Source: Bacillota bacterium
GTDB taxonomy: Bacteria > Bacillota > Clostridia > Caldicoprobacterales > DTU083
Assembly (NCBI GenBank): GCA_029549985.1
Contig: JAKPIB010000022.1
Location: 1-64,000 of the forward strand
DNA: 64,000 nucleotides
Reading direction: 5' to 3'
Position 1 is the first letter of the stretch, and each line of letters opens with the position of its first letter. Position numbers and translations under genes: made by a program. Shown here piece by piece: positions 30,294 through 63,769 of this stretch. Under the pieces are notes generated by a model, which was not told the DNA's origin, did not search any database, and worked only from the letters and a program-made list of their open reading frames with translations.

Positions 30294-31511
30294 TTATAGA
30301 AAAGTCATTTTCATTACACTATTGTCATCATCGTTTATATACTTCAGGTTTTTCTCTATAAGCTCCCTGCGCTGCGCCACACATGCATAAGACCTGCCCG
30401 GGTCCGGCGGTGTGTTGATGCAGTAGTCCACAAGCCTGTCCACCGTCGTCTCAGCCACATGGCACCTTGTATCGGAGGATGCATAGTAGATATATACCTG
30501 GCCGTTTTCACGGGCAATCAGGCCGTTGCAGAATACCACATTGGAAACGTCGCCTACCCGCTCCTCACCCTGAGGCGCGAGGAAGTACCCGCCGGGTGCA
30601 TATATGACCCTCTCAGGTGCGTTCAGGTCCGTCATAAAGGCATACAGCACATACCTGAGGCCTGCTGCGGTATTGCGCACGCCATGGGCTATATGTATCC
30701 AGCCCTTGTCTGTTTTTATCGGGGCAGGGCCCTGTCCGTTCTTGACTTCTTTGATGGTATGGTATTCCTTCTGATCGACTATTGTTTCTTCTTCGATCAC
30801 AGCTTCTTCAATGGAATCGGACAAGCCCCATCCTATCCCGCCTCCGGTGCCTGCCTCTATGAACCCGTCCTGGGGCCTTGTATAGAAGGCATACTTGCCC
30901 TGGACAAATTCAGGATGGAGGACGACATTGCGCTGCTGGGGCGAGCTTGTTTTTATATCAGCCAGCCTTTCCCAATGCCTGAGATCCTTTGTCCTCGCCA
31001 CCCCGCACTGGGCAATGGCAGCCGAGGTATCCCAGGAAGGAGCGTCGGGGTCCTTGCGTTCAGTGCAGAACAGGCCGTATATCCAACCATCCTCGTGGGC
31101 GGTCAGCCGCATGTCATACACATTTACGTCCGGATCGTCCGTCTCAGGGATCAGAAGGGGATAATCCCAGAATTTGAAACCGTCTACCGGCGAATCGCTC
31201 TCAGCGACTGCGAAAAAGGATTTCCGGTCATTGCCTTCTACCCTGGCTACCAGGTAGAACTTACCGTTCAACTCGATGGCGCTGGGATTGAAGACCGCAT
31301 TTATGCCCATCCTCTCCATAAGGTAGGGGTTTGTTTCATAGTTGAGATCATAGCGCCAGAACAGGGGGGTATGGTCTGCAGTCAGTACCGGATACTTGTA
31401 TCTGAAATATATCCCGTTGCCGCAGGGCTCCTTTTCGTTTTTCCTTTGTATGATCCTTCTGTAGTTTTCGATTAATTGCACACAGCGTTGATCGAATTCG
31501 TTCCTGGTCAT
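30294..31511 (-). CDS. GH130 phosphorylase, probable beta-1,4-mannosylglucose phosphorylase
   Basis: 405 residues, the size of GH130 subfamily 1 enzymes that split 4-O-beta-mannosyl-glucose with phosphate to mannose-1-phosphate and glucose. Landmarks: [20 protein letters not shown], the predicted catalytic Asp133 in [23 protein letters not shown], and TRPQDGF with GGGIGWGLS. It has no signal peptide, so it is cytoplasmic. GGGAGG lies 8 bases before the ATG. Paired with the cellobiose 2-epimerase at 10683-11897 it completes the known route from mannobiose to mannosylglucose to sugar phosphates. Subfamily 2 mannooligosaccharide phosphorylase is the alternative, less likely because of length and motifs. 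Confidence 0.88.
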
Positions 31512-35544: not shown

Positions 35545-35573
35545 TTGAACAAAGTGAATAAATGTGGTATTCT
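35545..35573 (+). promoter_or_regulatory. Sigma-A promoter of xylA
   Basis: TTGAAC, 17-base spacer, TATTCT, giving a leader of about 36 bases. I see no convincing XylR-type operator dyad over it. Confidence 0.75.
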
Positions 35574-35616
35574 TTATAAAAAAGCCTTCGTATGCGATAT
35601 GAAAGGAGGAAGAACC

Positions 35617-37023: not shown

Positions 37024-37080
37024 AATCCGACTGTTGTTTGGTTATATATATAACAGTACATATTCAAGGAGGGAATGATC

Positions 37081-39648: not shown

Positions 39649-41031
39649 TTAGTCGTTTTTAAGGAAGTCGTCGAGTGCCTGCTGCAGGGTATCGAAGTAC
39701 TCGTCGATTATCTCAGCAACGGTCTTGTCGCCCTTCAGCAAGGAATCCTGCGGACCCCACCAGGTCTCTACAGCTGCCTTTACAGAACCCCAGAGGCCAA
39801 CGCTTACATATGCATTGTTGTCATACATGTACTCGAGTACATCGAAGTAAGCATCGTCACGTGCTCTGTCTTCATGAGCTTCCTTCCAGGAATCAGGATC
39901 GTCTTCGGGGAAGGGCTCTGTCCACTTGTTCCAGATGAACGCTACATCTTCAGGCTTGTTGACGTTCATGGGTATGGTCTGGAAGTTGTGGCCTGTGATA
40001 TAAGCCTTGTAGGACTGCTCGGGATCATCGGGACCGATCGGGGGCAGTACGATGCTGTAGTCGTCTTCCATGTTTTCCCTGAAGCTGTCAACTTTCCAGT
40101 ACTGATACCAGAACATTCCTACGTGTCCCTGCTCGAACATGGTTGCAGCTATATCCCACGGAGGATTGTCGCCATAGAGATATTTGCTGTATACAACCTT
40201 GTCGGTATTGCAGAGGTTCCAGTAGTAGTTGAGTGCGTTTACAACCTTCTGGTCTCTCAGGTTGAGGGTAGCTTTGCCATCAGCATAGGATGCCATTGTG
40301 CCGCCGTTGGAGTAAACCATGGACAGATCCAAGTCCATACCGGCAAGGCCCCACTGGTCGATAACGCCGTCATTGTCGGTATCCTTTGTCAATGCTTTTG
40401 CATACTCTCTCATCTTATCCCAGGTCCATTCCTTGGTCTTCATGAGCTCGTTGGGATAGGTGAGACCTGCTTCGTCGAATATTCTCTTGTTGAAGAAGAC
40501 CATGCCCCTGGGCCACCATTTACCGGTTGCCATGCCGTATACTTTTCCATCGATGGTCGTGGATTCAACAGTCAGGGGATCCCATTTCTCTTCACTGAAA
40601 TCGAACCACTGATCGAGAGCCTGGACTTCGTTCAGTTTGTAGTGCTGCATGAGCCAGTTGTCTTCAATGGTAGCGATATCAGCGAAGGGGGTACCGCTCA
40701 TTACAGAGGATGAATATGTCTCGTTGACATTTTCCCATTCAAGGATGACATACTCAAATGTGAAGTTGTACTTCTCCTCCATCTCGGCTCTGCGCTGTAC
40801 CTGACGGTCGCCGCCAGGTGTACCGCCCTGGGGAGTCATATCCCACCAAGCAGCTACCTTGATGATCCTGCCGCCCAGATCCCTAACTTCTTCGGGAGTG
40901 GGTGAAGGCTCATCAGAAGGCTCAGGAGACGGTGAGTTCTCAACTGCAGGCTTGTTGCAGCTTACTGCCAGTGCAGCAACCAGAACAACAACCATGGTTA
41001 AGGTCAGTAATCTCTTAAGACCTTTTGACAT
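39649..41031 (-). CDS. Extracellular sugar-binding lipoprotein of an ABC importer
   Basis: 460 residues. A lipoprotein signal peptide ends at lipobox ALAVSC, followed by an Asn/Pro/Ser/Glu linker (SPSPEPSDEPSPTPEE) and a family 1 solute-binding domain (IIKVAAWWDMTPQGG; YGMATGKWWPRGMVFFNKRI; WTWDKMREYAKALTKDTDND). The many tryptophans suggest a carbohydrate ligand. The start at 41031 is set by AGGAGG about 9 bases upstream; the frame extends into the promoter. It has its own strong promoter and terminator, which fits the need for excess binding protein over the permeases encoded upstream (43-44 kb). Its codon use is less GC-rich than its neighbours, as expected for a highly expressed gene. Confidence 0.93.
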   Translation of the reverse strand: MSKGLKRLLTLTMVVVLVAALAVSCNKPAVENSPSPEPSDEPSPTPEEVRDLGGRIIKVAAWWDMTPQGGTPGGDRQVQRRAEMEEKYNFTFEYVILEWENVNETYSSSVMSGTPFADIATIEDNWLMQHYKLNEVQALDQWFDFSEEKWDPLTVESTTIDGKVYGMATGKWWPRGMVFFNKRIFDEAGLTYPNELMKTKEWTWDKMREYAKALTKDTDNDGVIDQWGLAGMDLDLSMVYSNGGTMASYADGKATLNLRDQKVVNALNYYWNLCNTDKVVYSKYLYGDNPPWDIAATMFEQGHVGMFWYQYWKVDSFRENMEDDYSIVLPPIGPDDPEQSYKAYITGHNFQTIPMNVNKPEDVAFIWNKWTEPFPEDDPDSWKEAHEDRARDDAYFDVLEYMYDNNAYVSVGLWGSVKAAVETWWGPQDSLLKGDKTVAEIIDEYFDTLQQALDDFLKND

Positions 41032-41158
41032 AACAGAATACCTCCTATATTGTGTGATTGTTTTATTAAAACCCATATGGGTCTTAAACTGTGCTTTAAG
41101 CTTTTTCGCAGCTGTCATACATATTGTACAAATATACAGCCGGTATTTATGCAATTTG

Positions 41159-41187
41159 ATTGTATCATATAGGTTAGTTCAAGTCAA
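41159..41187 (-). promoter_or_regulatory. Strong promoter of the solute-binding lipoprotein gene
   Basis: Minus strand TTGACT, 17-base spacer, TACAAT. The leader of about 120 bases contains the palindrome ACCCATATGGGT followed by TTTAAT (near 41075), a possible transcript-stabilising or attenuating hairpin. Confidence 0.8.
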
Positions 41188-41211
41188 TATACCGAAATAT
41201 AGTGTATAGTT

Positions 41212-42402
41212 CTAAAATCTATCATTTATATACAGTTTCTTACGCGGGAACAGCCCTTCAAGCACATCCGCCTTGCCATTGATCTCGATCCTGCCTGCCT
41301 CCTTAAGCTGGGCGGGAGTCGCAAAGCCTGTTACAAGAGGCCCCAGGTCCTTGATGCCGCATACCAGGTCAGCCTCCCTGTCGGTCGTCTTGACTTCGAC
41401 TTCTCCCTTGTCCCAGGATACACAGTATCTTGCGGTATTGGCATCCAGGATGGCATCAGCAGCTTGTATGACAACACTGCCGCTGCCCTGAGGAGGGCTT
41501 ATGAGCTCCAGGGCCCGACGGGCATTCACCACCCTGTTCATGCCGTTGGTCATGATCTCCTGCCCGATATCGTAAGGCTCGGGGAAGTAGGAAAGCAGGT
41601 CGAAAAACGAGGGACATTCCCATATCAGGTTGGAAAACTGTGCGGACAGGCCCCTGACAAAGGCCATGATCCCCTCAAAGGCCTGGGTATCAAGCCATAC
41701 AAGCTCCTCTGCGATCAGGTCATATCCATATTCCGAGGTTTTCCTGATCCTGTGCTTCAGGTATCCTCGCAGAACATCGTCCTGGTTGTACCATAGGTAG
41801 ATGTATACGTTATCCTTATAGGGGTCGGCTGAGAAGAACCTCTTCCACCGGTACTCATCCCGGACTACCGCCAGGTTCTTGTCTTTTATGAAATCCCCAT
41901 AGACCGAAACAAGGGGCTGGCAGTCCATATCCTTTGTATACAGGCGGACGCTCCCGGTCTGACTGAAATGAGCCAGGCTCGAAAGCGGGATGGAGTACCT
42001 GGTCCGGGTCATGTTGAGCTCATAGCCGAACCGGCGGTAAAAGGGATGGGAAAAGGGATAAAGGTAGGAAAATACATATCCCTCGTCATACATCTCCTGC
42101 ATGCAGTACTGGAATATACTGCGAACGCCCCCCTTTTTCCGGTCTTCCGGATGAGTGGCTACCCCGCCTATGCCGCCCATGGCTACCATATGCCCGTCAT
42201 ACATGACGGTGTAAGGCAGCAGCTCAAGGCAGGAGCACATCTTGCCCCTATCATCAAAAGCCGCCCTGGTGGTCTCATAACCCTTACAATACTCTTCAGG
42301 GTTGGTTACGGCACCTGAAAAGTCTTCCTCCAAAAGGAAGGCCAGGTTTTGTATCTTGCGGGCTGTTATCTTCTCTTCTGGCTTGATCGGTCTGACTGTC
42401 AT
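41212..42402 (-). CDS. Eis-like GNAT acetyltransferase
   Basis: 396 residues. The N-terminal GNAT fold has the acetyl-CoA loop in VATHPEDRKKGGVRSIF after MVAMGGIGG, and the Eis-type second GNAT and SCP2-like C-terminal regions fill the rest (SYLYPFSHPFYRRFGYE is characteristic). Mycobacterial Eis acetylates aminoglycosides and peptides at several positions; substrates in Firmicutes are mostly unknown. It starts 15 bases after the second MalG-type permease gene and seems to be the last gene of the transport operon, which is an unexpected partner. Confidence 0.88.
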   Translation of the reverse strand: MTVRPIKPEEKITARKIQNLAFLLEEDFSGAVTNPEEYCKGYETTRAAFDDRGKMCSCLELLPYTVMYDGHMVAMGGIGGVATHPEDRKKGGVRSIFQYCMQEMYDEGYVFSYLYPFSHPFYRRFGYELNMTRTRYSIPLSSLAHFSQTGSVRLYTKDMDCQPLVSVYGDFIKDKNLAVVRDEYRWKRFFSADPYKDNVYIYLWYNQDDVLRGYLKHRIRKTSEYGYDLIAEELVWLDTQAFEGIMAFVRGLSAQFSNLIWECPSFFDLLSYFPEPYDIGQEIMTNGMNRVVNARRALELISPPQGSGSVVIQAADAILDANTARYCVSWDKGEVEVKTTDREADLVCGIKDLGPLVTGFATPAQLKEAGRIEINGKADVLEGLFPRKKLYINDRF

Positions 42403-42417
42403 AGCCGGCCCTTTCCA

Positions 42418-43416
42418 TCAACCTACTATACCGGTCCGCTCGATGCTTTCCACAAAGTACCTCTGGGCTACGAGGTAAACGAGCAGGAGCGGCAGTATTA
42501 CGAGCAGGCTTGCTGTATTGATATACATGGAGCTAAGCACCGGAGAGAGATATACAGTTGTCGCACTTCCTCTTAGATTGGTCAGATGCAGGGCTATAGC
42601 GTGCGAAACTCCTGACAGGGCGTTGGACAGCACCCTGAGACCTCCGGACAGGAAGAGGGAGGAGTAGAATGAGTCAGTCCACTGCCATACGAAGGAGAAC
42701 AGGAATACCGTCAGCATAGCCGGCACCGCACTTGGCAGCATGATCTTGTAAAAGGTCCTGAAAAGGCCTGCTCCGTCAACATAGGCTGCCTCCTCAAGCT
42801 CCTTGGGCATGCCCCTGAAGAATTGGCGGATTATATAGATATACAATCCGTTTTTGAGCCCCATGCCGGTCGCGGACATGAGGACGAACGGGGCATATCC
42901 ACCGAGCAACTTGAGCGGTTTGCCCAGGATCAGCTTGAAAATGCCAAGTATGTCGAAATCCTTGAAATGCAGGTACAGGGGTATCATTATGGTCTGGGGG
43001 GGTACGATCAGGGTGATGATGACCAATGCGAACAAGAGTCCCCTGCCCTTGAATTTGAACCTGGCGAACCCATAGCCGATTATGGTGCAGGACACAAGCT
43101 GCATTATGCTGGTGAACAATGAGAGCTTAAGGGTGTTCCAGAAGGCTTCCGGATACTTCATAGCTGTAATTACTGTCTTGTAATTATCCAGGGTAGGATT
43201 CTTAGCGATATACTTGACCGATATATCATAAAGGTCCTGCTCAGACATCACTGAAACGAGGAATTTGACCATGGTGGGGTATAATATCAGGAAGCAGATA
43301 CCGATTATTATGACCCCCCTGACGATCGACCATCCAAGTCTGCCCAGAGTATAGCCGGTCAGCCTGTGGTGGCCAAATAGCTTTATGTTGGTTATCTTTT
43401 CTAACATGGCATTCAT
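42418..43416 (-). CDS. Carbohydrate ABC importer permease, MalG type (second pair)
   Basis: 332 residues with six predicted membrane helices. The EAA loop that docks to the ATPase is EEAAYVDGAGLFRTFYKIML. The periplasmic-side loops are longer than in standard MalG. GGAGGTATGTT precedes the ATG. It follows its MalF partner by 51 bases. No ATPase gene is nearby; such permeases commonly use a shared MsmX-type ATPase. Confidence 0.93.
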   Translation of the reverse strand: MNAMLEKITNIKLFGHHRLTGYTLGRLGWSIVRGVIIIGICFLILYPTMVKFLVSVMSEQDLYDISVKYIAKNPTLDNYKTVITAMKYPEAFWNTLKLSLFTSIMQLVSCTIIGYGFARFKFKGRGLLFALVIITLIVPPQTIMIPLYLHFKDFDILGIFKLILGKPLKLLGGYAPFVLMSATGMGLKNGLYIYIIRQFFRGMPKELEEAAYVDGAGLFRTFYKIMLPSAVPAMLTVFLFSFVWQWTDSFYSSLFLSGGLRVLSNALSGVSHAIALHLTNLRGSATTVYLSPVLSSMYINTASLLVILPLLLVYLVAQRYFVESIERTGIVG

Positions 43417-43467
43417 AACATACCTCCAAATTATCAGTTATCCGGCCTTTAATGCAGACTTCATGGT

Positions 43468-44400
43468 TTATTCCTGATAGAACACCAGCCTGGATATGAT
43501 ACCGGTTATGATCGCTACTACCAGCATTATGGCTACGAAGTAGATCCAGGCCATGGCCGAGCTCAGGCCATATTTGGCATTCCTGAAGGCCTCGTCCCTG
43601 ATGATCGTCATTACAACGCTGTTGGAGTTGGTAAGCGTATCGATAACTGTATATACTGTATTGACCAGGATGAGCGGGCTTACCATCGGGAAGGTGATCT
43701 TCCAGAAGTTTTCCCAGCCTGTGGCGCCCTCGATGTTCGATGCTTCAAACAGGGAGGGTGAGATGGATTGCAGGCCGGCAAGGAATACCAGTATCTGGAC
43801 GCCCGATGCTGAAACGATCTCGTATATGCGGTTTACCGCGCTCACGATGAAGTCTACGAACCTGGTATCCAGCCTGGTGGACAGCAGCACTCTTGCCAGC
43901 GCTACAGCCTGAAATGAGCCTTCCTGGGCGTCTGTCTGGGTAAGCCCCATTGAGGACTGAAGCAAGTCCCCGCTGTCAACCGCGATGATAACACCTGACA
44001 TCAGGATGACCGGCAGGAAGAATATCGCCCTGGCAACGGAGCGACCCCTGAACTTCTGGTTGAGCAGGTTTGCGGCAAAAAAGCTGAAGATAACAACCAA
44101 AAGGACCTGTGTCGCCATAGCAGCCAAGCCTTCGCCGATCAGGGTCATAAAGCTCTTGCCCTCATTCGCTGTGGAAACATACTGAAGCAATGCGGTCTTG
44201 TAATAGTTGATTCCGTTAGGGCGCAAGGTGTAGCCGCCTTCAACGACTTCGATCACGTTCAGGCTGAATATGAAGGATTGTATCATAGGAAAGAGGAAGA
44301 ATGTAAGCAGTCCTATGATAAAAGGAAGCACGAACACATATCCCATCATGGCCTTTTTTTCCTCAAGGCCCATCCTGCGCTTTTTCCTTTTAGCCGCCAT
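43468..44400 (-). CDS. Carbohydrate ABC importer permease, MalF type (second pair)
   Basis: 310 residues, six predicted helices. The EAA loop is FEASNIEGATGWENFWKITF. A large external loop after helix 1 (VVEGGYTLRPNGINYYKTAL) is present. It starts one base after the DUF5696 gene ends, so translation is probably coupled. Together with the MalG-type protein downstream it forms one transmembrane channel, most likely served by the lipoprotein encoded at 39649-41031. Confidence 0.93.
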   Translation of the reverse strand: MAAKRKKRRMGLEEKKAMMGYVFVLPFIIGLLTFFLFPMIQSFIFSLNVIEVVEGGYTLRPNGINYYKTALLQYVSTANEGKSFMTLIGEGLAAMATQVLLVVIFSFFAANLLNQKFRGRSVARAIFFLPVILMSGVIIAVDSGDLLQSSMGLTQTDAQEGSFQAVALARVLLSTRLDTRFVDFIVSAVNRIYEIVSASGVQILVFLAGLQSISPSLFEASNIEGATGWENFWKITFPMVSPLILVNTVYTVIDTLTNSNSVVMTIIRDEAFRNAKYGLSSAMAWIYFVAIMLVVAIITGIISRLVFYQE

Positions 44401-44401
44401 A

Positions 44402-47056
44402 TCACTTGCCCTCCTTTACTACCTTGAAGCTTTGAGCTTCTATAGTTACGCCGTCAATGGTCACCGGCCGCCTGTTATAGTTGACGATTATCTCTCTGCC
44501 GTTTTCGTAGGTCGTCTTGTAAACATCATGCTGGAGTCTCTCATGGCCGACCATAAACATGCCCTGTACCGGCCCCAGGGCCTCCATGGCCTGTTCATAG
44601 AAGGTGAGGGCATCCTCCATCCAAACCTTGTAGTTGTTGGAGTAATAGTGGTCATAGAGGGTCTCCTTGACTACGGAGTTTTCCTTGTGGATGAAGCTGA
44701 AATACACTCCAGAACCGGTCTCTATGGCTTTCAGGAAAGCTGTCCTATACTCAGGAGACATATTGATAGGTTCACTTGCATAATCGATGTAGCCTCTGAT
44801 CGCCATCTGGAAGAAGGGTATGCTTTCATCGGTCAGATGGAACCTGTTCGATTCATCAGGGATGTTGAGCACATGGTTGGTATAGGGCAAGGCATATGAG
44901 TTGCCGCCATCCACCATGAGGTTCTTGCCTGCATCCCGTAACTTTTTCATCTGCTCTGCGAGCGTATCTGCAGCTTCCTGTCTGTCATAAAGCTCATTTT
45001 TCCTGAAGTTGGAATTTACATCGATAGCCGCATCATTGAGCGAAATGCCCGTGATGCCGAGCTTGTTCATGCTCTTCAGCATACCGTCCACTATATTGAC
45101 GATCTTGGCCGGGCTTATGATATACAGCAGGCCTCTCGTCCTGTCTTCACGGTTGGTTGCGATGTTGAACCTGAAGATCGAGGCTACCAGCTTGGTTATA
45201 TACCTGGATGCATGGGCCCTGGGATTGAACCCGTCAAACCAGGTGTCCTTGTATGCATATACGATCCCGAAATCAGGATAGTATTCATAACCCATCTCTT
45301 CCAAATAGGACTGGAGCGCTTTGAAGCCCTTGCTGCCGCCAAGCTTTGACATGAGCTTGATGGTCTGGGGTATGGTATGGTCTACCCCGCCGTTGGCCCA
45401 GCCCTTGTACCTGAGCACTATGTTGTCGACACCGCCGTCGTTGAGCTCCTTCATTATCTCTACTGCCTGTTCATAGGTGGTGAGCGGCTCGACAGTATTT
45501 ACCGGTATGCCCAGGATGGAGCGTACCTTATTGATAGCACCTATTATCTCGAGGTAGAAGGGCACCTTCCCGTCCTGTTCCTGCCTTGAAAGCCCGTATT
45601 TTTCAGCCAGATAGCTGCGGTAATACGCGGCCATGCCTGCATAGTCGGCTTCCTTGCCGTCCAGGAAGGCATACCTCAGCTGGATGCCGCTGTTGAAGGT
45701 CCTGGGCTGATAAACGCTTATGATGCTGAGTCCGGAATAATCGCTTATATCCAGCTCATCCCGGGGTATCAGGGTGAAGCTTGAATACACATAGTTGAAG
45801 GAGGTCTGCCTGCCGCTGATGTCAGCCTTGACTGCCGCCATGGCATCGCCTCTTTCTATGATGCAGAAGAAGGCTTCATTCTCGGTTTTGAGGCCGTACA
45901 CCGGCAGGTATGCCTGCTCGATGACCGTGGATCTTTCAACCAGCGGTATCGAACGGTCCAGGCCATATACATCGATCGAATAGCTCGATGCATACAGCTT
46001 GTTGTTGTTGAGGTATATAAGGGAGCCGGACCCGTCGGGGACCAGCATGTACCCCTGCTCCTGGGTGCCTGCTGCACCGAAGAAGGGGAGCACATCGATG
46101 CTCGCGATCGGGTAGGTCTCGTGATATTCGATCTCCCTGGTGGGTATGCTTACGACCAGGTTGTCGTCATCCAGCCTGTACTCAAGGGGTATGAAGAAGA
46201 CATCCAGGTTGCCCTCCTCCGGAGGCACATTGTTGGCTATATGGTCTTCGTTCTTGTCATCCATGGTGTATCCAGCGGAAACGACGATCTCTTCAAGCTG
46301 CCTTAATCTGAACTCCTGGATGACCGCTGAAATGACATATATATCGCCCTCTGCCAGGCTGGGATACTGCTCTTTCTGGGCTGCCGTAGCCTTTTCATAA
46401 GTGAGCAGGGAATAATATCTGAGCAGGGTTTTCGCCTGAGACTCAGAAATATTGGCGATGATCTTCTCTTCCATCCTGGCCTTGCTTATGACCTTGGGCA
46501 GGGTGTATATGGTCTCTTCCTCGCCTACGCGGTACTCTATCCGGGCCCCGTTTTCGATCTTCTTTATCTCAAACTGTCCAAGCTTCACCGAATCGGGATA
46601 GCTGTAATAGATGCTTGGCTGGGAGGCCGGAGTATAGTACACTACGCGAAGCTGGGAGTTCATCAGGTTCTTATATGCCGGTGAGGCCTTTGGATCCGAA
46701 TTGCGGCCTCTTGGGTTGGTATACCATATCTTGCCGGTCTTTTTTACCTTGACAGCCGCTTCAGCTGTTTCCCTGCTGATATATAGCTCAAGCTTGCTGT
46801 TTTCAGCTATTTTCTCCATTGACTCTATGCCCGGCTCTGCCGGGAGATTCCCCGGTTCCTCCTCTTCTTCTTCGGTACCGGGCTCCTCTGACGACTCGTC
46901 AGTGTTTTCTCCAACTTCAGCCTCGTTGGTATCAGCGGGCGCTGTCTGCTCCTGGTCCGTGTCCTGGCCGCCAACAGGCTCCATATAGGCAACCGAACCG
47001 GATAAAAGGAGAGTGATGGCGAGTGTCAGAACTATGATTTTCCTGATTATTTTCAT
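44402..47056 (-). CDS. Large exported DUF5696-type protein, possibly a glycoside-hydrolase-like enzyme
   Basis: 884 residues. A signal peptide (about 1-24) is followed by a very acidic linker (about 27-75), a beta-rich region (about 80-480), a segment that reads like a TIM barrel (about 500-770: VPFYLEIIGAINKVR, NIVLRYKGWANGGVDH, YEYYPDFGIVYAYKD, GITGISLNDAAIDVNSNF, MVDGGNSYALPYTNHVL) and a C-terminal small beta domain (NYNRRPVTIDGVTIEAQSF). The barrel-like strands ending in acidic residues suggest a glycosidase fold, but I cannot name catalytic residues. It sits between a YIP1 gene and a permease pair with gaps of 17 bases and 1 base, so it belongs to the transport operon. DUF5696 assignment is from memory of the cluster and motifs. 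Confidence 0.75.
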   Translation of the reverse strand: MKIIRKIIVLTLAITLLLSGSVAYMEPVGGQDTDQEQTAPADTNEAEVGENTDESSEEPGTEEEEEEPGNLPAEPGIESMEKIAENSKLELYISRETAEAAVKVKKTGKIWYTNPRGRNSDPKASPAYKNLMNSQLRVVYYTPASQPSIYYSYPDSVKLGQFEIKKIENGARIEYRVGEEETIYTLPKVISKARMEEKIIANISESQAKTLLRYYSLLTYEKATAAQKEQYPSLAEGDIYVISAVIQEFRLRQLEEIVVSAGYTMDDKNEDHIANNVPPEEGNLDVFFIPLEYRLDDDNLVVSIPTREIEYHETYPIASIDVLPFFGAAGTQEQGYMLVPDGSGSLIYLNNNKLYASSYSIDVYGLDRSIPLVERSTVIEQAYLPVYGLKTENEAFFCIIERGDAMAAVKADISGRQTSFNYVYSSFTLIPRDELDISDYSGLSIISVYQPRTFNSGIQLRYAFLDGKEADYAGMAAYYRSYLAEKYGLSRQEQDGKVPFYLEIIGAINKVRSILGIPVNTVEPLTTYEQAVEIMKELNDGGVDNIVLRYKGWANGGVDHTIPQTIKLMSKLGGSKGFKALQSYLEEMGYEYYPDFGIVYAYKDTWFDGFNPRAHASRYITKLVASIFRFNIATNREDRTRGLLYIISPAKIVNIVDGMLKSMNKLGITGISLNDAAIDVNSNFRKNELYDRQEAADTLAEQMKKLRDAGKNLMVDGGNSYALPYTNHVLNIPDESNRFHLTDESIPFFQMAIRGYIDYASEPINMSPEYRTAFLKAIETGSGVYFSFIHKENSVVKETLYDHYYSNNYKVWMEDALTFYEQAMEALGPVQGMFMVGHERLQHDVYKTTYENGREIIVNYNRRPVTIDGVTIEAQSFKVVKEGK

Positions 47057-47073
47057 TTCTGCTCAACCCTCCT

Positions 47074-47700
47074 TTAGAATCGCAATGAAATTTCCTGGAA
47101 TACTGTCCATGCAAACCAGAACATCTGCTGCAACAGGCTGAAGAACAGCAGCCCTATGAAGATTATCAGTCCGACACCAACGATGATGCAGATGCAGGTG
47201 ATAAAGGCCTTGGTCATGGAATACTGGTGTACGACGCTTGTACCTACCAGCATCAGGGCCGCAGCCCATACGGTGCTCAAGGATATGAAGAAATAGTAGA
47301 AAGCGCCTTCGTCCACGGTTATCACATTGCTGACCAGGATCATCGGCAGGTTTATCAGTATTAGCGGAGTCAGGGCATAGGCCGAGGTTATGATGATATC
47401 CTTGAAGCTGCCTTCACCGTCCATCAGAGTGGTCAGGCACCAGTTCGAAATGCACCAGAGCATGAAGGGCAGCACGACGCTGATTATCTCTACCAGGATA
47501 TTGAGCTCCAGGAGGTTCACGGTATTGAATATGAAGCCCGTAGCCTGCCTTCTGAGGATATAGGTGATGCTCAGCAGGGCTACTATGACCAACGCAGATC
47601 CGAGATTACCCTTCTTTTCATGCTTCAGGTCCCAGAATCCGTTGAATGGATGAAAGATCAGATATGTTACATATCTAAGGCCTCTTAATACTTCCATCAT
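47074..47700 (-). CDS. YIP1-family membrane protein
   Basis: 208 residues with about five membrane helices (ALVIVALLSITYILRR, VVLPFMLWCISNWCLTTLMD, ALTPLILINLPMIL, SLSTVWAAALMLVGTSVVH, CIIVGVGLIIFIGLLFF). The pattern MDGEGSFKDIIITSAYALTP is typical of the YIP1 fold. The family has no defined bacterial function. It overlaps the NHL-repeat gene by four bases and precedes the DUF5696 gene by 17 bases, so all three are co-expressed and probably form one membrane complex; that is inference. Confidence 0.82.
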   Translation of the reverse strand: MMEVLRGLRYVTYLIFHPFNGFWDLKHEKKGNLGSALVIVALLSITYILRRQATGFIFNTVNLLELNILVEIISVVLPFMLWCISNWCLTTLMDGEGSFKDIIITSAYALTPLILINLPMILVSNVITVDEGAFYYFFISLSTVWAAALMLVGTSVVHQYSMTKAFITCICIIVGVGLIIFIGLLFFSLLQQMFWFAWTVFQEISLRF

Positions 47701-49190
47701 GCTACCACCTCTCTCCTGCCCTTTCTTTTGGCACGAATGTAAAGTCCGACGCTAAGTATCAATATCACTGCAACGATGACGCCGAAGTAGCGGCTAAGGA
47801 CCTCCTTGCGGTACAGCTTGAAGGCCTTGCTGTAATAATCCCTTTTGTTGCCGAGCCTGAAATACTTCATTGCCGTATAGAATTCATCCTGATCGAGAGC
47901 TGCCTTGCCCATTCCTATATAGGCCAGCTCGGAGTTGGCATTGTATTTGAGGACTTCCTCCCAGCAGGCGGTAGCTTCGTCATATTTTCCTTCGTTGTGG
48001 TAGTATACGGCCTGCAGGACCAGCCTGCCATAGTCAGTGGGTTCGAATACCGTGATCTGACCCTGGCCGGATACGCTCTTGTCAAGGACTATGAAATTCT
48101 CACCGACCTTGTCGAAGGCCACAGGGTTGTTGAAGGTACCGAGGCGGTTGCCCTTGCCTCCGAAGATGAAGAGGATGTTGCTGTCGCCGTCATAGGTGAA
48201 GATACGGCCGCGCTTGTTGTCCAGCACGCTGTATATGCCGTATTTATCAGCGCATACGTCTACCAGGAGGGACTGACCGCCTTCGGCGTAGCCCCTGGAG
48301 AAGAACTGGACGTCCCCGACCGGCGGGAAATAGCCGCGGCGCCTGAGGATGTCCTTGCCCGTGGGATTCAGCTTCCTGACCGGCGACACCCTGTCATCGG
48401 TCGACCGGCCGCTGATGGCTCCCTGTATGGCGTAAACGCTTATGGTGGAAGTGGTGACGTATATGAACCCATCCTCATCCATCCTGATATTGTTGTACTC
48501 AGTGGGGACGAAGTCCGTTGTCCTGTCGAGCATCTCCTCGGTATAGAACAGCCTTATGAAGTACTGGTACATGTTCACCGATACTCTCGGCGCGCCCATG
48601 TATGTCCTGAAGTTGCCTTCGCTGTCAAACTCCATCAGACCCTGGTTGACGCCGGTAGCGACCACATACAGTCTTTGCGCCCTGTCAACTACCAGGGCTG
48701 TAGGCTTGTACTCGAAATTTTCAGGTATGATCTCATTGACAGGTTTGCCGATCACCCGTACCAGGTTGCCGTCTTCATCGAGCTCTACGACCCTGCCGTT
48801 GCCCGTATCAGCAACATACAGGTGCTCTGCATCGGTTATGAACACGCCCTGGGGTGCATTGAAGGTCTGCTCTTCGCCGTTCATGACGAAACTGTCGACG
48901 ATCCTTTCTACCTCCCATTGATCATTCAGAACGACTATCCTGTTGTTGCCCGTATCGGCAACATAGATCTTGCCTGCCGGGGAGACGAACAGATCGTTCG
49001 CATTGTTGAAAGCGCCTATCCCTAAGGTTGTGCCTTCCACGATCCGTGTAGGAACATAGGGCGCGGGAGCAGGTACGGGATTGCCCCAATAGTCATATGT
49101 GTAGCTGCTGTAGGGAATTTCTGCAAAAGCTGTGGTAGTAAGCAAAACAGATATCAGTACGGTACATATCAGATATTTTCTCAGCTTCAA
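47697..49190 (-). CDS. NHL-repeat beta-propeller protein with TPR segment and C-terminal membrane helix
   Basis: 497 residues from a TTG at 49190, chosen because GGGAGGG lies upstream and a signal peptide (KYLICTVLISVLLTTTAFA) begins there. NHL repeats are evident: FVSPAGKIYVADTGNNRIVV, HLYVADTGNGRVVELDEDG, PTALVVDRAQRLYVVATG. After the propeller comes a TPR-like pair (YHNEGKYDEATACWEEVLKY, ALDQDEFYTAMKYFRLG) and a transmembrane helix (YFGVIVAVILILSVGLYI) with a basic tail. The propeller and TPR are thus outside the cell, anchored by the C-terminus. A scaffold or ligand-sensing role in the transport complex is inferred. Confidence 0.85.
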   Translation of the reverse strand: MKLRKYLICTVLISVLLTTTAFAEIPYSSYTYDYWGNPVPAPAPYVPTRIVEGTTLGIGAFNNANDLFVSPAGKIYVADTGNNRIVVLNDQWEVERIVDSFVMNGEEQTFNAPQGVFITDAEHLYVADTGNGRVVELDEDGNLVRVIGKPVNEIIPENFEYKPTALVVDRAQRLYVVATGVNQGLMEFDSEGNFRTYMGAPRVSVNMYQYFIRLFYTEEMLDRTTDFVPTEYNNIRMDEDGFIYVTTSTISVYAIQGAISGRSTDDRVSPVRKLNPTGKDILRRRGYFPPVGDVQFFSRGYAEGGQSLLVDVCADKYGIYSVLDNKRGRIFTYDGDSNILFIFGGKGNRLGTFNNPVAFDKVGENFIVLDKSVSGQGQITVFEPTDYGRLVLQAVYYHNEGKYDEATACWEEVLKYNANSELAYIGMGKAALDQDEFYTAMKYFRLGNKRDYYSKAFKLYRKEVLSRYFGVIVAVILILSVGLYIRAKRKGRREVVA

Positions 49191-49206
49191 TTGCTTGCCC
49201 TCCCCT

Positions 49207-50079
49207 CTATTCCTTAATGCCAGATGTGGCCATGGTCTGTATGACACTGCTCTCTGTAGCCATAAACAGCACTATTGGAACTATCATGATAAGCAGGATT
49301 GCAGCAGCGCCGGCACCGGCCCTGGCAAAACCGCCTAAAAGGATCTGGTTGAGGGCATAGGGCAATGTCTTCAGCTCTTCGCTGTATATGAAGGTGCTTC
49401 CCGTCTGGCCCCACAGGGACTGGAAGCAGAATATGATCAGAGTCAGCCAGCCGGGTTTGACGCAGGGCATTGCGATCCTCCAGAAGGTCCTGAACTCTCC
49501 CGCCCCGTCCATGCGGGCCGATTCAAGCAGCGAGTCGGGGATCGTTACCATGAACTGCTTCATCAGGAACAGGCCCAGGGAATATCCAAAGGCCGGTACG
49601 ACGAGTGACAGATATGTGTCAAGAAAGCCCAGCTTCGCCATCGTAAGGTAGTTGGGTATGGCTGTGACAGCCGCTGAGAACATAAGGGATGTCACGACCA
49701 TCGTGAAGAATGCCTTGCTGCCCGGGAACTTGTGCTTTTCAAGCACAAAGGCCGCCATGGAAGCTATGACCACATGGCCCAGGGTACCGACTGCCGTTAT
49801 GAACAGGGTATTGAAGATGTACCGTGTAAAGGGCACCCAGGATTGAGCCATGAGGAGGAACAGGTCGGTAAAGTTGTCAAGGGTGGGGTTCACTACGTAG
49901 AATCTCGGCGGGAACATGTAGATCTCGTCCAGGGGCTTGAATGCCTGCATTATGGCATATATAAGGGGCAATACCATGAAAATGCCGAAAATAGTGATTA
50001 TCACGAGATTGAATATGTCACCGCCCAATGACCGGTTCAGTCTTCTGGTCCTGATCCGTCTGAACTTCCTCTTCTTCAT
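49207..50079 (-). CDS. Carbohydrate ABC importer permease, MalG type (first pair)
   Basis: 290 residues, six predicted helices, with a basic N-terminus (KKRKFRRIRTRRLNRS). The EAA loop is ESARMDGAGEFRTFWRIAMP. It starts one base after the MalF-type gene ends. It ends 17 bases before the NHL gene start, within the same operon. Confidence 0.94.
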   Translation of the reverse strand: MKKRKFRRIRTRRLNRSLGGDIFNLVIITIFGIFMVLPLIYAIMQAFKPLDEIYMFPPRFYVVNPTLDNFTDLFLLMAQSWVPFTRYIFNTLFITAVGTLGHVVIASMAAFVLEKHKFPGSKAFFTMVVTSLMFSAAVTAIPNYLTMAKLGFLDTYLSLVVPAFGYSLGLFLMKQFMVTIPDSLLESARMDGAGEFRTFWRIAMPCVKPGWLTLIIFCFQSLWGQTGSTFIYSEELKTLPYALNQILLGGFARAGAGAAAILLIMIVPIVLFMATESSVIQTMATSGIKE

Positions 50080-50080
50080 G

Positions 50081-51031
50081 CTATCTCCCCACCTTTCTTA
50101 AAAGATTCTGTACGATCTTATTGCAGCCGATCATGGTTATGAACAATACTGTTGCAATAGCTGACGCATAGCCCATCTCGAACCTTGTGCTGCCGTAGTC
50201 GATCAGGTGGTTGACTACCGTATGGGCTGCGTAGTCGACACTGGGCATACCTGCCAGGGCGATCGTCACATCGCTTATGGCAAAGGAAGAGGTTATGGAC
50301 ATGACCGCGCCGAACATGAGCATGGGCTTCATGTTGGGCAGGGTGATATACCAAAGCTCCTGCCAGCGGTTCTTGATCCCGTCAACTATGCCTGCCTCGT
50401 ACTGGCTCCTGTCGATGCCCTGCAAGCCTGCCACGAAGGCCAGGAAGCCAGTGCCCAGGCTCATCCAGAGGACGACTATCATAATTACCGTCAGCATGTA
50501 CTTGGGATCGGTCAGCCATTGGATGGGCTCATATATGATACCTAGCTTCATAAGGGTAGAATTCATGTAGCCGTATGAATCACCGCTGAACATGACCGTC
50601 CAGATCATGTAGACGTTGCCAGATATGGATGGGGCGTAGAAAATCAGGATCAGGAACGCCCTTACCTTGGGGGGCAGTTCATTGATGAACCAGGCGAACA
50701 TCAGGGATGCAAGATAGCCTATAGGCCCGGTTATAGCTGCAAGCACGAAGGTGTTCTTGACTGCCACAAGGAAGATATCATCGCCCAAAAAGAGCTTGAT
50801 ATAGTTTTGCAGCCCCTGGAACTTCGGTGGTTCCAGGATGTTGTAGTAGGTAAAGCTCAGATATATGGAGATGATGACGGGTATGACCGTAAAGGTTATG
50901 AATATCAGGGCATAGGGGGCAAGGAAGGCATAGGACACCCTATGTTTGACGATATCCCTTCCAAGACCGGTCATCCTGTCCACTAACCTGCTTTTATAAG
51001 CAGGCTTGACTTTTTCGATCACAGTGGCCAT
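50081..51031 (-). CDS. Carbohydrate ABC importer permease, MalF type (first pair)
   Basis: 316 residues with six predicted helices (SYAFLAPYALIFITFTVIPV first). The EAA loop is EAGIVDGIKNRWQELWYITL. It abuts the stop codon of the giant solute-binding protein gene directly, so translation is coupled. It probably forms a channel with the MalG-type protein downstream, fed by that binding protein. Confidence 0.94.
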   Translation of the reverse strand: MATVIEKVKPAYKSRLVDRMTGLGRDIVKHRVSYAFLAPYALIFITFTVIPVIISIYLSFTYYNILEPPKFQGLQNYIKLFLGDDIFLVAVKNTFVLAAITGPIGYLASLMFAWFINELPPKVRAFLILIFYAPSISGNVYMIWTVMFSGDSYGYMNSTLMKLGIIYEPIQWLTDPKYMLTVIMIVVLWMSLGTGFLAFVAGLQGIDRSQYEAGIVDGIKNRWQELWYITLPNMKPMLMFGAVMSITSSFAISDVTIALAGMPSVDYAAHTVVNHLIDYGSTRFEMGYASAIATVLFITMIGCNKIVQNLLRKVGR

Positions 51032-53923
51032 TTACTTCCCTCCATCCCTCAGCTCGAGGCCGAATTCTTTTCTCTTATTATCGATCTCATCATTGATGAT
51101 CCTGACATAATCAAGCAGAGTCTCCCTTGGGTCGGCGCCCTCATTGATGACCTTCCTGAAGGCATTGTTCAGATGCCTTGGAGTGAAGTAGCCGCCCGGT
51201 ACTTCGGGATTGCCGATCACCCACTGCCTTTGGGTATTCAGGGCCTTATAATCCTTGGTCGGCCAGGGAAGCTGCTCTGCGGCCACTATATTTGCAGTAG
51301 GATGGCGGGCCGAGGCACCCATAAGGCTCTCCATCTCACGGCCGAAGCGCACCTGTGTCTCAGCGCTGACCCACCATTTCATAAACTGCCATGCGGCCTC
51401 GGGGTCTTTGGCGTTCTTGAGCATCATCACGCAGTTGCCGCCGCTGGTGGTCGACCTGTCTATCGTCCCGTCCTCCCGCTCGACACCGGGTATGGGGGCC
51501 ATCTCCCACAGTCCCCTTATCTCCGGCGCAAAGACCTGGAGGTTGTTGTACAGCCAGTACTCATTTATAGCAATTGGGATCTCACCGGTCCTGAACCTGT
51601 TCATGACATCGAACTGCAGGGGGAAGCCGTAGTTGAGGTAAAGGTCGGTCCACTCCTTGAATGCAGCTATAGCCTCCTCGGTGTCAAGGCCGCTGGCCTT
51701 GTCATCATCCACATAGAGCCTGCCGCCCTTCTGGTACAGGAAGGTACTGAAGGTCTGCATAGCCCCCCACATATCGGTGTTCACTGCGACAGGAACGCTG
51801 ATATCCATGTTCTTCTTCTGGATGTCAGGTATGATCTCATACAGCTCCTTCCAGGTGTTCGGTGGCTTTACCCCAAGCTCTTCCAGTATGTCTGTACGGT
51901 AGAACATCATCTGGAACTGCTGCTGCTCGGGCAGGCCATATACACCGCCGTTGAACCGGAAGGGTACCAGGGAGTTGGGCAGGAACTCCTTTATGACATC
52001 TTCAAAGCCCTCAAAGCCCGTCAGATCCATCGAAGCATTACGGGTCGCATAGTTGACCGGCTCACCGTTGCCAACGGACAAGGCGACATCGGGCCCCCTG
52101 CCGGCAACCGTGGCAGGCAGGAGCACAGTCGCCTGGACCAGCTGGACGTTGACCGGAATACCATACTCCGGAGTGAAGGTATCATCTATCATCCTCTTTA
52201 CGGTATTGGCCTGGTCACGGCCGGTGGTTATCCAGACAGTAACAGCCTTGCTCTTGTCGTAGACGTTGCCCACGCTGTCATAGTCCTCGACGAAGGAAGC
52301 AAAGAAAGCGGAGATCTCGTGCCATGCCTTCCTCAGGAAGGACGCATCGGCAGCGGGCAGCTTTGCATCCTTGGACGAAACGACTATATAGTCGATCTCA
52401 AAGGGCTGCTCACGGGTATTGAGTATCCAGGTGCTCAGGGCACCCACGTTGTCCTTGAACTGCTGGAGCCTGTTCTGGATAGTCCTTGGCTTCTTGGCCA
52501 TGGTCTTGAGCTGGTATGCAAGGCGGTCAAGGACCGCGTTGTGGGAACCACGCTGCTTGGTATATGCAACGAGCCTTTCGGACAGCTCGTATAACCTTTC
52601 GCTTTGCTCTGCAAAGGTCTGTATTACTCCGGGCAGCTTCTTGTCAAGATCATAATCACGGTACTGGTCGGGGTTCTTGCCCGTGATCATGAGGATCTGC
52701 CTGTAGGCGTTGTTCAATATATAGACCATGTCTTCGGCTTCACGGAGGATATCTGCCAGATCGCCCAGCACTATCTCCATCTTGATCACGTTTTTGCCTT
52801 TTTTAAGATGGAACAGATAGGGCTCATCCTCTGTGCCCAGGACAAAATTCTGCCAGTTGGTGGAATAGTTGAAGGGTATGGTCTCGACCTCTTTGAAGGG
52901 GACCTCACCGTTTATGATCAGCTTTCTGTTGGCGTAAAGGCCGCGGGTGATGTTCTGCCTTCCCTTTATGGTTATCTGGTAAAGGCCTTCCTCGGGAACC
53001 TCTACTTCCCATGTGACCCACTGGCCTGGTATGCGCCAGTTGTATCCGCCTATGGTATTGAGTCTTACCTTTGAGACATGATAGGGCACTGTAGCCGGAG
53101 AAGTGCGGTCGTTCAAAGGATATATGGTCGGGTCGGATTTGAAGACGGCATCCTCGCCCTGGATGATGATGGGCTCGGTGGATATCACCTTGTATCCCTT
53201 TGCTTCATATTCCTTCCTGACTTCTTCATAAGTAGGTATTTGCGCAGTCTGACAAAGCTTGATGGAACCTATGACCATAGGCTCCTTGACTGAAACCAGT
53301 CTGATGGTGTTTTCGCCTTTTTTAAAGTAGAAGAGATAGGGCTCCGTGTGATAGCCCATATAGTCGCTGAACCAGGCTTCCTGCCACCGGGGGCTTTCCT
53401 CCTGGCGAGGCCTGATATCATTGCCGCGATTGTCCTGCCTGATCTCCTCGGAGTCAGCCCAGACCCTTGTAAAGGTCAGGTGGTTGGCATCCGTAAAAGG
53501 AGATTCGCCATTGATCCACAGCTCCCGCTCTATGGAAGACTGCCTGCCCTTGACAGGGTAGTACTCGATCCAAATGTTGTACAGGCCTTCCTCCTGAACA
53601 TCGACCTTGTACTCGATAAAGCCTTCCTCATCGGTAAGTATGGATTTGCCGGACTTGCCTTCATAATCTTCAAGTATCTCGATGGTCATATCCTTAAGTG
53701 AATACTTGTCGGGAGAAATGACTATCTCCGTCTGAGGCCTTGTGGCGTTCGGAAATTTACTTATGTACTCCTCATAGGTGCCGGAACGCTCGATGACGCT
53801 GTCGCCTCCCGAGCCCGAGCCGGTATCGGCGGAAACCGAAATACCGCTCAAATTGAAAAAAGTGATGAATAGGACAAGGATGCAGATTTGTGAAGTCAGT
53901 CTGATTATCTTCTTTCCCCTCAT
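51032..53923 (-). CDS. Giant extracellular solute-binding protein with two repeated N-terminal beta domains
   Basis: 963 residues, about twice the size of usual family 1 binding proteins. A signal peptide ends near ISVSA (residue 32); there is no lipobox. Two similar beta-sandwich units follow (about 105-220 and 305-390), sharing EEGLYNIWIEYYPVKG versus EEGLYQITIKGRQNI, then RELWINGESPF versus RKLIINGEVPF, and LFYFKKGENTIRLV versus LFHLKKGKNVIKME. A helical region (about 395-500) precedes the binding domain (about 560-960: VWITTGRDQANTVKRMID, LEELGVKPPNTWKELYEII). The start at 53923 is set by AAGGGG 8 bases upstream. The beta units may bind glycan and present it to the transporter; this is inference. 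Confidence 0.9.
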   Translation of the reverse strand: MRGKKIIRLTSQICILVLFITFFNLSGISVSADTGSGSGGDSVIERSGTYEEYISKFPNATRPQTEIVISPDKYSLKDMTIEILEDYEGKSGKSILTDEEGFIEYKVDVQEEGLYNIWIEYYPVKGRQSSIERELWINGESPFTDANHLTFTRVWADSEEIRQDNRGNDIRPRQEESPRWQEAWFSDYMGYHTEPYLFYFKKGENTIRLVSVKEPMVIGSIKLCQTAQIPTYEEVRKEYEAKGYKVISTEPIIIQGEDAVFKSDPTIYPLNDRTSPATVPYHVSKVRLNTIGGYNWRIPGQWVTWEVEVPEEGLYQITIKGRQNITRGLYANRKLIINGEVPFKEVETIPFNYSTNWQNFVLGTEDEPYLFHLKKGKNVIKMEIVLGDLADILREAEDMVYILNNAYRQILMITGKNPDQYRDYDLDKKLPGVIQTFAEQSERLYELSERLVAYTKQRGSHNAVLDRLAYQLKTMAKKPRTIQNRLQQFKDNVGALSTWILNTREQPFEIDYIVVSSKDAKLPAADASFLRKAWHEISAFFASFVEDYDSVGNVYDKSKAVTVWITTGRDQANTVKRMIDDTFTPEYGIPVNVQLVQATVLLPATVAGRGPDVALSVGNGEPVNYATRNASMDLTGFEGFEDVIKEFLPNSLVPFRFNGGVYGLPEQQQFQMMFYRTDILEELGVKPPNTWKELYEIIPDIQKKNMDISVPVAVNTDMWGAMQTFSTFLYQKGGRLYVDDDKASGLDTEEAIAAFKEWTDLYLNYGFPLQFDVMNRFRTGEIPIAINEYWLYNNLQVFAPEIRGLWEMAPIPGVEREDGTIDRSTTSGGNCVMMLKNAKDPEAAWQFMKWWVSAETQVRFGREMESLMGASARHPTANIVAAEQLPWPTKDYKALNTQRQWVIGNPEVPGGYFTPRHLNNAFRKVINEGADPRETLLDYVRIINDEIDNKRKEFGLELRDGGK

Positions 53924-54059: not shown

Positions 54060-54115
54060 ATATTGCACAATATTACTATAACATAAATATACCATGCATA
54101 CAAATCGTATGTCAA
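54060..54115 (-). promoter_or_regulatory. Strong promoter and dyads before the transport operon
   Basis: Minus strand TTGACA (54110-54115), 18-base spacer, TATATT (54086-54091). The spacer contains an inverted repeat CATAC-AAATC-GTATG (54097-54111). Just after the expected start lies ATATTG-CA-CAATAT (54060-54073). Both could be operators. About 155 bases of leader follow, containing CTCGCGAG near 54008-54015. No regulator gene is adjacent. Confidence 0.72.
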
Positions 54116-57082: not shown

Positions 57083-57094
57083 ATGGCTCTCCCC

Positions 57095-62748: not shown

Positions 62749-63723
62749 TTATTCATATGACTTCAGGTCCGGAAGCTTATCCAGGGTGATCACATAGGGG
62801 TGGTTGTAGACCTTGTAAAGGTGGTCAGGTGTATTGCATTTCCCGTCCGTAACAAAATCGCCGAACCAGGGGCAGAACCACAGCCATTTTGCCTCCTCGC
62901 CGATCAAGAGGTCAGGATCCGGGATAGGCCCGTTTTCCGTCATGGCGATAAGCTTTATATCGCCTCCGAAGGACAGCAGGGCTTCAAAGCCCTCCTTGTT
63001 GGGATTGTAGTCTCCTGCCGGGAAGTACTTGTCTATACCGATGATGTCAACGCAGTCATGGCCGGGATACCAGTCGGTGTTGAGTTCATTGAAGGCAAAG
63101 GTCCAGACCCAGATCAGGTTGTTCAGCTTGAACTCGTATGTGAACCTTTCATACATGAGCCGGTAAAGGTCCTTGCAGGGCCCGGGCCCATGGGCTCCCC
63201 ACCAGAACCAGGCCCCGTCAGCCTCGTGGAAGGGCCGCCAGAGCACCGGCACGCCTGCATCCCTAAGGCGCGCAAGCTCCCGTCCTACTATTTCCATATC
63301 CTTCATGGCTGCAGCATGCTCCGGTGTACCCTTATTGAGCAGCCTTCTTATGTCAAAATCCGTCTGGCTGGTGTAAAAGCTTTTTGTAACGGGCTTCCCG
63401 CCCATGGGGGAATACCAGTGCCAGCAGATGGTGACAAGGCCGCCCTTGTTCAAATACCAGTCCATGGCCCTTTCAGTGACATCGTCCGGCCAGGACATGG
63501 CCGATGAGTAGTTGAGAAAATCCATGCTTCGTATGGCCGGCAGCTTGCCTGTGACCTCCAGGATGCGGTCAAGCTCCGGCCTGTAGGGAAACTCCGCTTC
63601 ATGCTGGCCGGAGAGTATGCCCTTGCCGTAGGTGTCAGCCAGATAGCTTATGACCCCCCTTGCCTCCTTTGAGGGGTCGGGATTCACCAGTTCCTTGTTT
63701 ATGCTTTTAGGATACTTGCTCAT
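62749..63723 (-). CDS. Cytoplasmic GH26 beta-mannanase-like enzyme
   Basis: 324 residues, single domain. GH26 landmarks: GILSGQHEAEF near the N-terminus, acid/base Glu167 in WRPFHEADGAWFWWG, nucleophile Glu263 in AMTENGPIPD, and WYPGHDCVDIIGIDKYFP. It should cleave beta-1,4-mannan or glucomannan. There is no signal peptide or binding module, so it acts inside the cell on imported oligomers. The start at 63723 is set by GGAGG 5 bases upstream; the GTG at 63735 lies over that site. It complements the 2-epimerase and GH130 enzymes elsewhere in this window. Confidence 0.92.
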   Translation of the reverse strand: MSKYPKSINKELVNPDPSKEARGVISYLADTYGKGILSGQHEAEFPYRPELDRILEVTGKLPAIRSMDFLNYSSAMSWPDDVTERAMDWYLNKGGLVTICWHWYSPMGGKPVTKSFYTSQTDFDIRRLLNKGTPEHAAAMKDMEIVGRELARLRDAGVPVLWRPFHEADGAWFWWGAHGPGPCKDLYRLMYERFTYEFKLNNLIWVWTFAFNELNTDWYPGHDCVDIIGIDKYFPAGDYNPNKEGFEALLSFGGDIKLIAMTENGPIPDPDLLIGEEAKWLWFCPWFGDFVTDGKCNTPDHLYKVYNHPYVITLDKLPDLKSYE

Positions 63724-63769
63724 ATTTGCCTCCACTCGAATTCAATTTTTATCAGTGTCAAGATTTTTG

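Follow-up and report, generated by a model that had tools for sequence, protein, structure and literature searches.

A conserved cassette joining two CUT1-type permease pairs with NHL/TPR, YIP1 and DUF5696 proteins, and its possible role in glycan uptake

The ten-gene locus and its surroundings

The locus described here belongs to an uncultured bacterium and lies in a window of 64,000 nucleotides (the whole stretch of DNA that was analysed). It comprises ten genes, all on the minus strand and read from 53923 to 39649, which encode, in this order, the binding protein SBP1, the permeases MalF1 and MalG1, an NHL/TPR protein, a YIP1 protein, a DUF5696 protein, the permeases MalF2 and MalG2, a GNAT acetyltransferase and the binding protein SBP2. 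An earlier note on this DNA had already listed ten co-oriented genes with these families, and the gene positions and the Pfam matches bear it out. In the protein scan, SBP1 (51032..53923 (-), E 1.8e-29) and the solute-binding lipoprotein SBP2 (39649..41031 (-), E 1.8e-11, with a lipobox-like AVSC) match SBP_bac_1, and the four permeases, all of the CUT1 type, match BPD_transp_1. Each permease carries the EAA loop that provides the contact with the ATPase: EAGIVDGI in MalF1 (50081..51031 (-)), ESARMDGA in MalG1 (49207..50079 (-)), EASNIEGA in MalF2 (43468..44400 (-)) and EAAYVDGA in MalG2 (42418..43416 (-)). Between both pairs lie the NHL propeller and TPR protein (47697..49190 (-); Pfam NHL E 4.8e-13, TPR_11 sub-threshold at E 2.7e-4), a multi-spanning membrane protein of the YIP1 family (47074..47700 (-); Pfam Yip1 E 2.1e-15) and the DUF5696 protein (44402..47056 (-); DUF5696 E 1.7e-215), predicted to be exported or anchored and to have a GH129 fold. 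The Eis-like GNAT acetyltransferase (41212..42402 (-)) combines Acetyltransf_9/17 with SCP2_2. NCBIfam returned no match for the YIP1, DUF5696 and SBP2 proteins of the window.

The genes are closely packed over most of this length. SBP1 and MalF1 are separated by 0 bases, MalF1 and MalG1 by 1, YIP1 and DUF5696 by 17, DUF5696 and MalF2 by 1, MalF2 and MalG2 by 51 and MalG2 and GNAT by 15, while the NHL and YIP1 genes overlap by 4; the coordinates thus agree with the one- and four-base junctions reported before for NHL/YIP1, DUF5696/MalF2 and MalF1/MalG1. The gap between MalG1 and NHL amounts to 16 bases given an NHL start at the TTG at 49190, which is preceded by a GAGGGGAGGG ribosome site and is rated a likely start. 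The tight spacing implied by the earlier note holds at these upstream junctions, but not at SBP2, whose likely start (ATG 41031, with AGGAGG in front) leaves a larger gap of 180 bases behind GNAT. This last gene has a promoter-like site of its own at 41159..41187 (-) (TTGACT-17-TACAAT, a 10/12 consensus match). Ahead of SBP1, the best of 29 matches in the scanned region is a promoter-like site of the extended type at 54086..54115 (-) (TTGACA-18-TATATT with TG before the -10, 11/12, likewise a consensus match).

SBP1 is more than a binding protein in its predicted architecture. Its AlphaFold model (pLDDT 85) begins with an N-terminal hydrophobic segment and two beta-sandwiches (about 60-225 and 244-388), and continues through a helical bundle into a C-terminal oligosaccharide-type solute-binding domain (about 556-956) that reaches Z 37.2 to the MalE3 of T. 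maritima. Since the fold search with the whole model retrieved this binding domain only, the identity of the sandwiches was approached by sequence profiles: the second one matches a cycloisomaltooligosaccharide glucanotransferase chain at E 4.7e-5 and gives weak matches to other CBM35 chains, while the first one and Pfam CBM_35 gave sub-threshold matches only. These profile matches suggest that SBP1 bears a CBM35-like module. No ATPase is encoded among the cassette genes; a UgpC/MsmX-type ATPase is found elsewhere in the genome (G000:C20:155351, 500 bits, over the family cut-off). In this respect the locus resembles the CUT1 importers that share an MsmX/UgpC ATPase, in which a binding protein and MalF/MalG permeases with EAA loops are likewise encoded apart from the ATPase. 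Unlike them, it adds a second permease pair and three conserved extras, namely the NHL/TPR, YIP1 and DUF5696 proteins.

The genes directly upstream on the same strand (54221-58231 (-)) are of the efflux type, not CAZymes, and encode an ADOP/FtsX-type permease and an RND_mfp/MacA-type adaptor; no ATPase gene for this pair is seen within 54221-58231. The FtsX gene is also present in a genome of the same genus and in one of the same family (L036, L038). Farther away, the window encodes a CotH-kinase protein with Fn3-associated and chitobiase C-terminal-like domains (23036-25156 (-)), and a stand-alone desulfoferrodoxin ferrous-iron domain of the superoxide reductase type (37075-37458 (+)) beside a xylose isomerase gene (35545-36936).

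Conservation of the cassette

Of 61 genomes close to that of the window, 29 proved to contain DUF5696, with 41 full-length copies between them. A second set, of 80 named loci, was drawn from a genome-wide scan; Paenibacillus contributes most of them, the others including Cohnella, Lederbergia, Gracilibacillus and Clostridia as well as a halanaerobe and a spirochaete. The loci of both sets were searched with one profile per cassette component. A strict automatic test finds the full series SBP1-MalF1-MalG1-NHL-YIP-DUF5696-MalF2-MalG2, with its order unchanged, in 87 of the 111 loci; the loci that fail are mostly explained by contig ends or over-extended start codons, although there are real variants as well. 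Given that the same order recurs in 87 of 111 related loci, the gene order of the window is not due to chance. The conserved cassettes are also compact, with neighbours mostly within 30 bases of each other and median gaps of -14 to 17 bases. Furthermore, the pairwise distances of seven components correlate at 0.86-0.97 over the 87 cassettes (uncorrected for the species phylogeny), which indicates that the cassette is inherited whole. The earlier note had mentioned similar neighbourhoods in Paenibacillus-like genomes, correctly so. Its proposal of a joint envelope machine would have had to be given up if the NHL, YIP1 and DUF5696 genes were not conserved beside permeases, but they are, in Paenibacillus, Cohnella, other Bacilli, Clostridia, the halanaerobe and the spirochaete.

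The association is close to exclusive from the side of the NHL protein. Searched alone in the 61 genomes, it appears in 40 places, 38 of which are beside DUF5696; the two NHL hits that lack DUF5696, like the three DUF5696 copies that lack NHL, are all on broken contigs, and two of these contigs appear to carry corresponding pieces of cassettes that were split. YIP1 is present at every locus, and in 33 loci it forms one protein of about 680-810 residues with the NHL/TPR part, the two being separate genes elsewhere. At least 12 changes between the fused and the split state are counted on the DUF5696 tree. What could such a protein look like at the membrane? The transmembrane scan gives the NHL/TPR protein an N-terminal hydrophobic segment (signal or anchor) and a single C-terminal transmembrane segment, in agreement with the C-terminal anchor assigned to it before. 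Since this segment is followed by a basic tail, as judged from hydrophobicity, YIP1 would begin on the cytoplasmic side. The fusions fit a role as membrane scaffold. For an accessory role of YIP1 there is a precedent: YknW, a Yip1 protein of Bacillus, modulates the assembly of an ABC exporter (PMC4887032), so that by analogy the YIP1 of the cassette may be an assembly factor. In both systems a Yip1 membrane protein is accessory to an ABC transporter; YknWXYZ, however, is a MacB-type exporter (PMC4887032), whereas the YIP1 described here sits with importers and has an extracellular propeller/TPR protein as its partner, either encoded separately or fused to it.

The possibility has to be considered that the locus holds two independent, ordinary CUT1 importers together with unrelated surface proteins, merely co-regulated and co-inherited and forming no joint machine. 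Each permease pair has its EAA loops and a plausible binding protein, and the short form described below, devoid of the first pair, tells that the channels can be uncoupled. Nonetheless, what is conserved over the lineages is the order, beyond the content, the NHL-YIP fusion occurs repeatedly and the NHL protein is exclusive to the cassette context in the genomes searched, so that we regard this explanation as quite unlikely. By the same order, exclusivity and fusions, the case for a joint envelope machine is strengthened. A glycan-sensing complex, in which NHL/TPR-YIP1 and DUF5696 would monitor surface glycans and, through nearby AraC-type or sensor-kinase regulators, tune how active the two importers are or how strongly they are expressed, appears very unlikely: AraC and histidine-kinase genes do flank some cassettes, but these regulators are inconstant neighbours, and the Pfam protein scan found no cytoplasmic signalling domain in NHL or YIP1.

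Not all ten genes belong to the conserved unit. In the halanaerobe genome, which has 10 copies, six of the six examined lack SBP1, MalF1 and MalG1 and follow the order NHL-YIP-DUF5696-MalF2-MalG2-SBP2, and two other loci look alike. The existence of this short form points to an inner core composed of NHL, YIP1, DUF5696 and the second permease pair, with the first pair and SBP1 as an extension. Both of the import channels proposed earlier are thus encoded, in the standard gene order, at 87 of the 111 loci, but they are not essential, the short form having the second pair only. SBP2 is a frequent companion of variable place: Paenibacillus has it upstream of SBP1, whereas in Clostridia it mostly lies downstream. 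The GNAT gene, listed among the ten genes of the operon in the earlier note and evaluated here as a candidate member of the unit, was rejected on its restricted distribution: it occurs in the window's genus and, beyond that, in a single genome of the same family, and is better described as a local addition.

Copy numbers range from 1 to 16 DUF5696 per genome (30 genomes). The window's own genome holds a second, diverged full cassette (L043, G000:C20:45000-64999). This cassette is followed by a GH106 alpha-L-rhamnosidase gene, and its DUF5696 lacks a carboxylate where the nucleophile would be. At another locus (L045:7582-9060 (-)), the MalF2-type reading frame has 493 residues against the usual 310 or so, and may represent an elongated permease, a fusion protein or a start codon that was misread.

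DUF5696 and its catalytic positions

The AlphaFold model of the DUF5696 protein (pLDDT 88) matches NagBb (Z 31.2) and ZgDagB (Z 31.1) over 577-580 residues and its whole length, the next matches in the fold search being GH101, GH36 and GH13 at Z about 20. The full sequence profile also finds GH129-like chains at E 4.5e-9, so that DUF5696 has in common with GH129 (NagBb) and the GH129-like ZgDagB a fold of about 580 residues and a distant sequence homology. The protein scan gave no match of DUF5696 to Pfam Glyco_hydro_129 (PF11308) at E 0.1. PF11308 had no match either in the window's own genome at E 0.001, a search that came out blank with its controls included and, lacking a positive control, adds little and is uninformative on the distribution of GH129. 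A profile of the C-terminal half brought chance PDB matches; the route that worked combined the full profile with the free-standing homologues, i.e., proteins of 561-668 residues outside the cassette that align to NagBb at E 2e-32. Their conserved Asp and Glu fall on NagBb Asp435 and on the Glu counted as 478, which we take to be the acid/base. Asp435 has been named catalytic (PMC5698469). The mapping relies on profile alignments, a profile-profile step carrying the NagBb positions to D675 and D716 of the window protein.

At these positions the window's copy has an Asp both at the nucleophile (D675, at the end of strand 4) and at the acid/base site, where Asp716 stands in place of the Glu found in 12 of 12 free-standing homologues. 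A plainly dead protein, as considered at one point, is therefore rejected for this copy, which may have a hydrolytic activity of its own. Position 683 (Asp in most members, Asn in the window) was also considered as nucleophile and rejected, since the profile alignment gives 675. Among 117 cassette DUF5696 proteins, an Asp or Glu occupies position 675 in 87, position 716 in 48 and both in 40, whereas both carboxylates are kept in all 12 distinct free-standing homologues (40/117 vs 12/12; Fisher p 8e-6, shared ancestry being ignored). The carboxylate at the nucleophile position is missing even from 22 of the 87 complete cassettes, and its state changes at least nine times on the tree. Other residues are far more constant: P747 and N765 are invariant, W553, R692, N719 and E779 are conserved in about 97%, and E779, D743, D683 and D341 in about 90% or more.

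The earlier note had proposed that DUF5696 trims a glycan. This does not agree with catalytic positions that are lost repeatedly inside intact cassettes; since the dyad is kept in the free-standing homologues and lost in cassettes, trimming is not the conserved function, and hydrolysis, to judge from these residues, is not what keeps DUF5696 in the cassette. The capture and hand-over of glycan chains would suit the protein better. The contrary view is that DUF5696 is an active surface exo-glycosidase which trims the chains to be imported, its mechanism being GH129-like except that many members would use another general acid. This view is attractive for the fold and homology, for the nucleophile-position carboxylate in 87/117 members, for the Asp at both positions in the window and for the four acidic residues (E779, D743, D683 and D341) so widely conserved. 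It can also point to ZgDagB, where the second catalytic residue of NagBb is absent and acids other than the Asp are required (PMC5698469), and by analogy with which a different general acid is possible for hydrolysis by DUF5696. Against it stand the 22 complete cassettes without the nucleophile carboxylate, the repeated changes of its state and the retention of both residues in every free-standing homologue, and on this balance we find it unlikely. In comparison with GH129, then, the cassette proteins differ in a dyad that is not conserved, in an extra N-terminal anchor and in a constant transporter neighbourhood.

Five of the free-standing proteins that match the DUF5696 model (L147:1087-2790, L148:6005-7762, L149:419-2200, L151:4332-6029 and L157:6243-7961; 565-593 residues) have no obvious signal peptide, keep both catalytic residues and, as a profile, match NagBb at E 2e-32. 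They are probably unrecognised GH129-type enzymes.

Flanking enzymes and a possible working of the cassette

The genes downstream of related cassettes encode GH9, GH26, GH10, GH43, GH5, GH3, GH2 and GH38 enzymes and sulfatases. For example, GH26-CBM35 and GH5 genes come immediately after a near cassette (L035), another (L032) goes with GH9 and GH10, and others are flanked by GH78, GH106, GH130 and GH43. In a control of 76 genes, taken from the same genomes away from cassettes, none of the 25 families listed is a GH family; families with a single member may fall beyond this list. In P. mendelii, which has 16 copies, ten have different downstream genes.

From the gene content, order, fusions and residue losses observed, together with the predicted folds and these flanking enzymes, the reading to which we incline, by a modest margin over its negation, is that the cassette is a surface glycan-uptake device of plant-polysaccharide gene clusters, with an NHL/TPR-YIP1 scaffold, DUF5696 as holder of chain ends and two importers. 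Secreted glycoside hydrolases would release oligosaccharides, which SBP1 and SBP2 would pick up and deliver to the two CUT1 importers, MalF1G1 and MalF2G2, both presumably powered by the unlinked MsmX/UgpC-type ATPase. The GH129-derived DUF5696, exported and anchored to the membrane and with its catalytic pair weakly constrained, would mainly hold the ends of chains or present them to the second importer, with hydrolysis perhaps retained in some copies. The NHL/TPR protein and its YIP1 partner would act as the scaffold that fixes the extracellular components to the membrane next to the permeases. We infer this physical assembly, as well as the binding by DUF5696, from the genes and models described above.

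In Bacteroidota, SusC/SusD loci form a modular glycan-capture unit that is repeated within a genome with differing enzyme sets, as is the cassette. More tentatively, and with less than an even chance of being right, the whole could be a single machine and, in function, a Gram-positive counterpart of SusCD, composed of a retired GH129 chain-end receptor, a propeller-TPR-YIP1 scaffold and one or two ABC importers, and redeployed many times with differing enzymes. The comparison implies no homology: the cassette has no SusC or SusD (none among the window's cassette proteins in the Pfam protein scan) and occurs in mostly single-membrane lineages. Sugar ABC import in CAZyme clusters is known; for the cassette with its conserved accessory core, no published description was found within an open-access full-text library, nor a paper there on DUF5696 or on NHL repeats with YIP1 and a sugar transporter. 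Paenibacillus-type bacteria are strong degraders of plant fibre, and the transfer of oligosaccharides from their surface to the importers is poorly described. Now that a family without known function has been assigned the GH129 fold, and given a recurrent propeller-YIP1 fusion and up to 16 copies per genome, some questions become testable, namely whether YIP1 and NHL tie the receptor to the permease, and whether DUF5696 acts as receptor or as enzyme. The cassette would, moreover, mark glycan loci, and the neighbouring enzymes would predict their substrates.

As for the window itself, four enzymes point to a substrate. A GH26 protein of the beta-mannanase family (62749..63735 (-), E 2.1e-68) is a likely partner outside the operon; a GH130 4-O-beta-D-mannosyl-D-glucose phosphorylase (30294..31511 (-), E 2.7e-172 to 3was) and a member of the cellobiose 2-epimerase family (10683..11897 (-), E 2.1e-113 to 9l8i) are likely cytosolic partners; and a GH5 protein (16947..17990 (+), E 1.9e-40) is a possible one. 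The epimerase stays below the NCBIfam equivalog cut-off, and its role as mannobiose epimerase is inferred. These mannan genes are scattered, some on the opposite strand and none in the operon, with GH26 9 kb away. Taken together with the GH26-CBM35 and GH5 genes behind L035, they make beta-mannan the best guess, and the window's cassette probably serves beta-1,4-mannan or glucomannan oligosaccharides. A similar set, with GH26, a 2-epimerase, a GH130 mannosylglucose phosphorylase and an ABC importer, makes up the beta-mannan route of the MULL locus in Roseburia intestinalis (PMC6385246); there, however, the importer has one binding protein and one permease pair (PMC6385246), whereas the window combines scattered enzymes with the expanded importer of the cassette. 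Two polysaccharide deacetylase genes flank the epimerase gene, at 9410-10528 and 11998-13014 (-).
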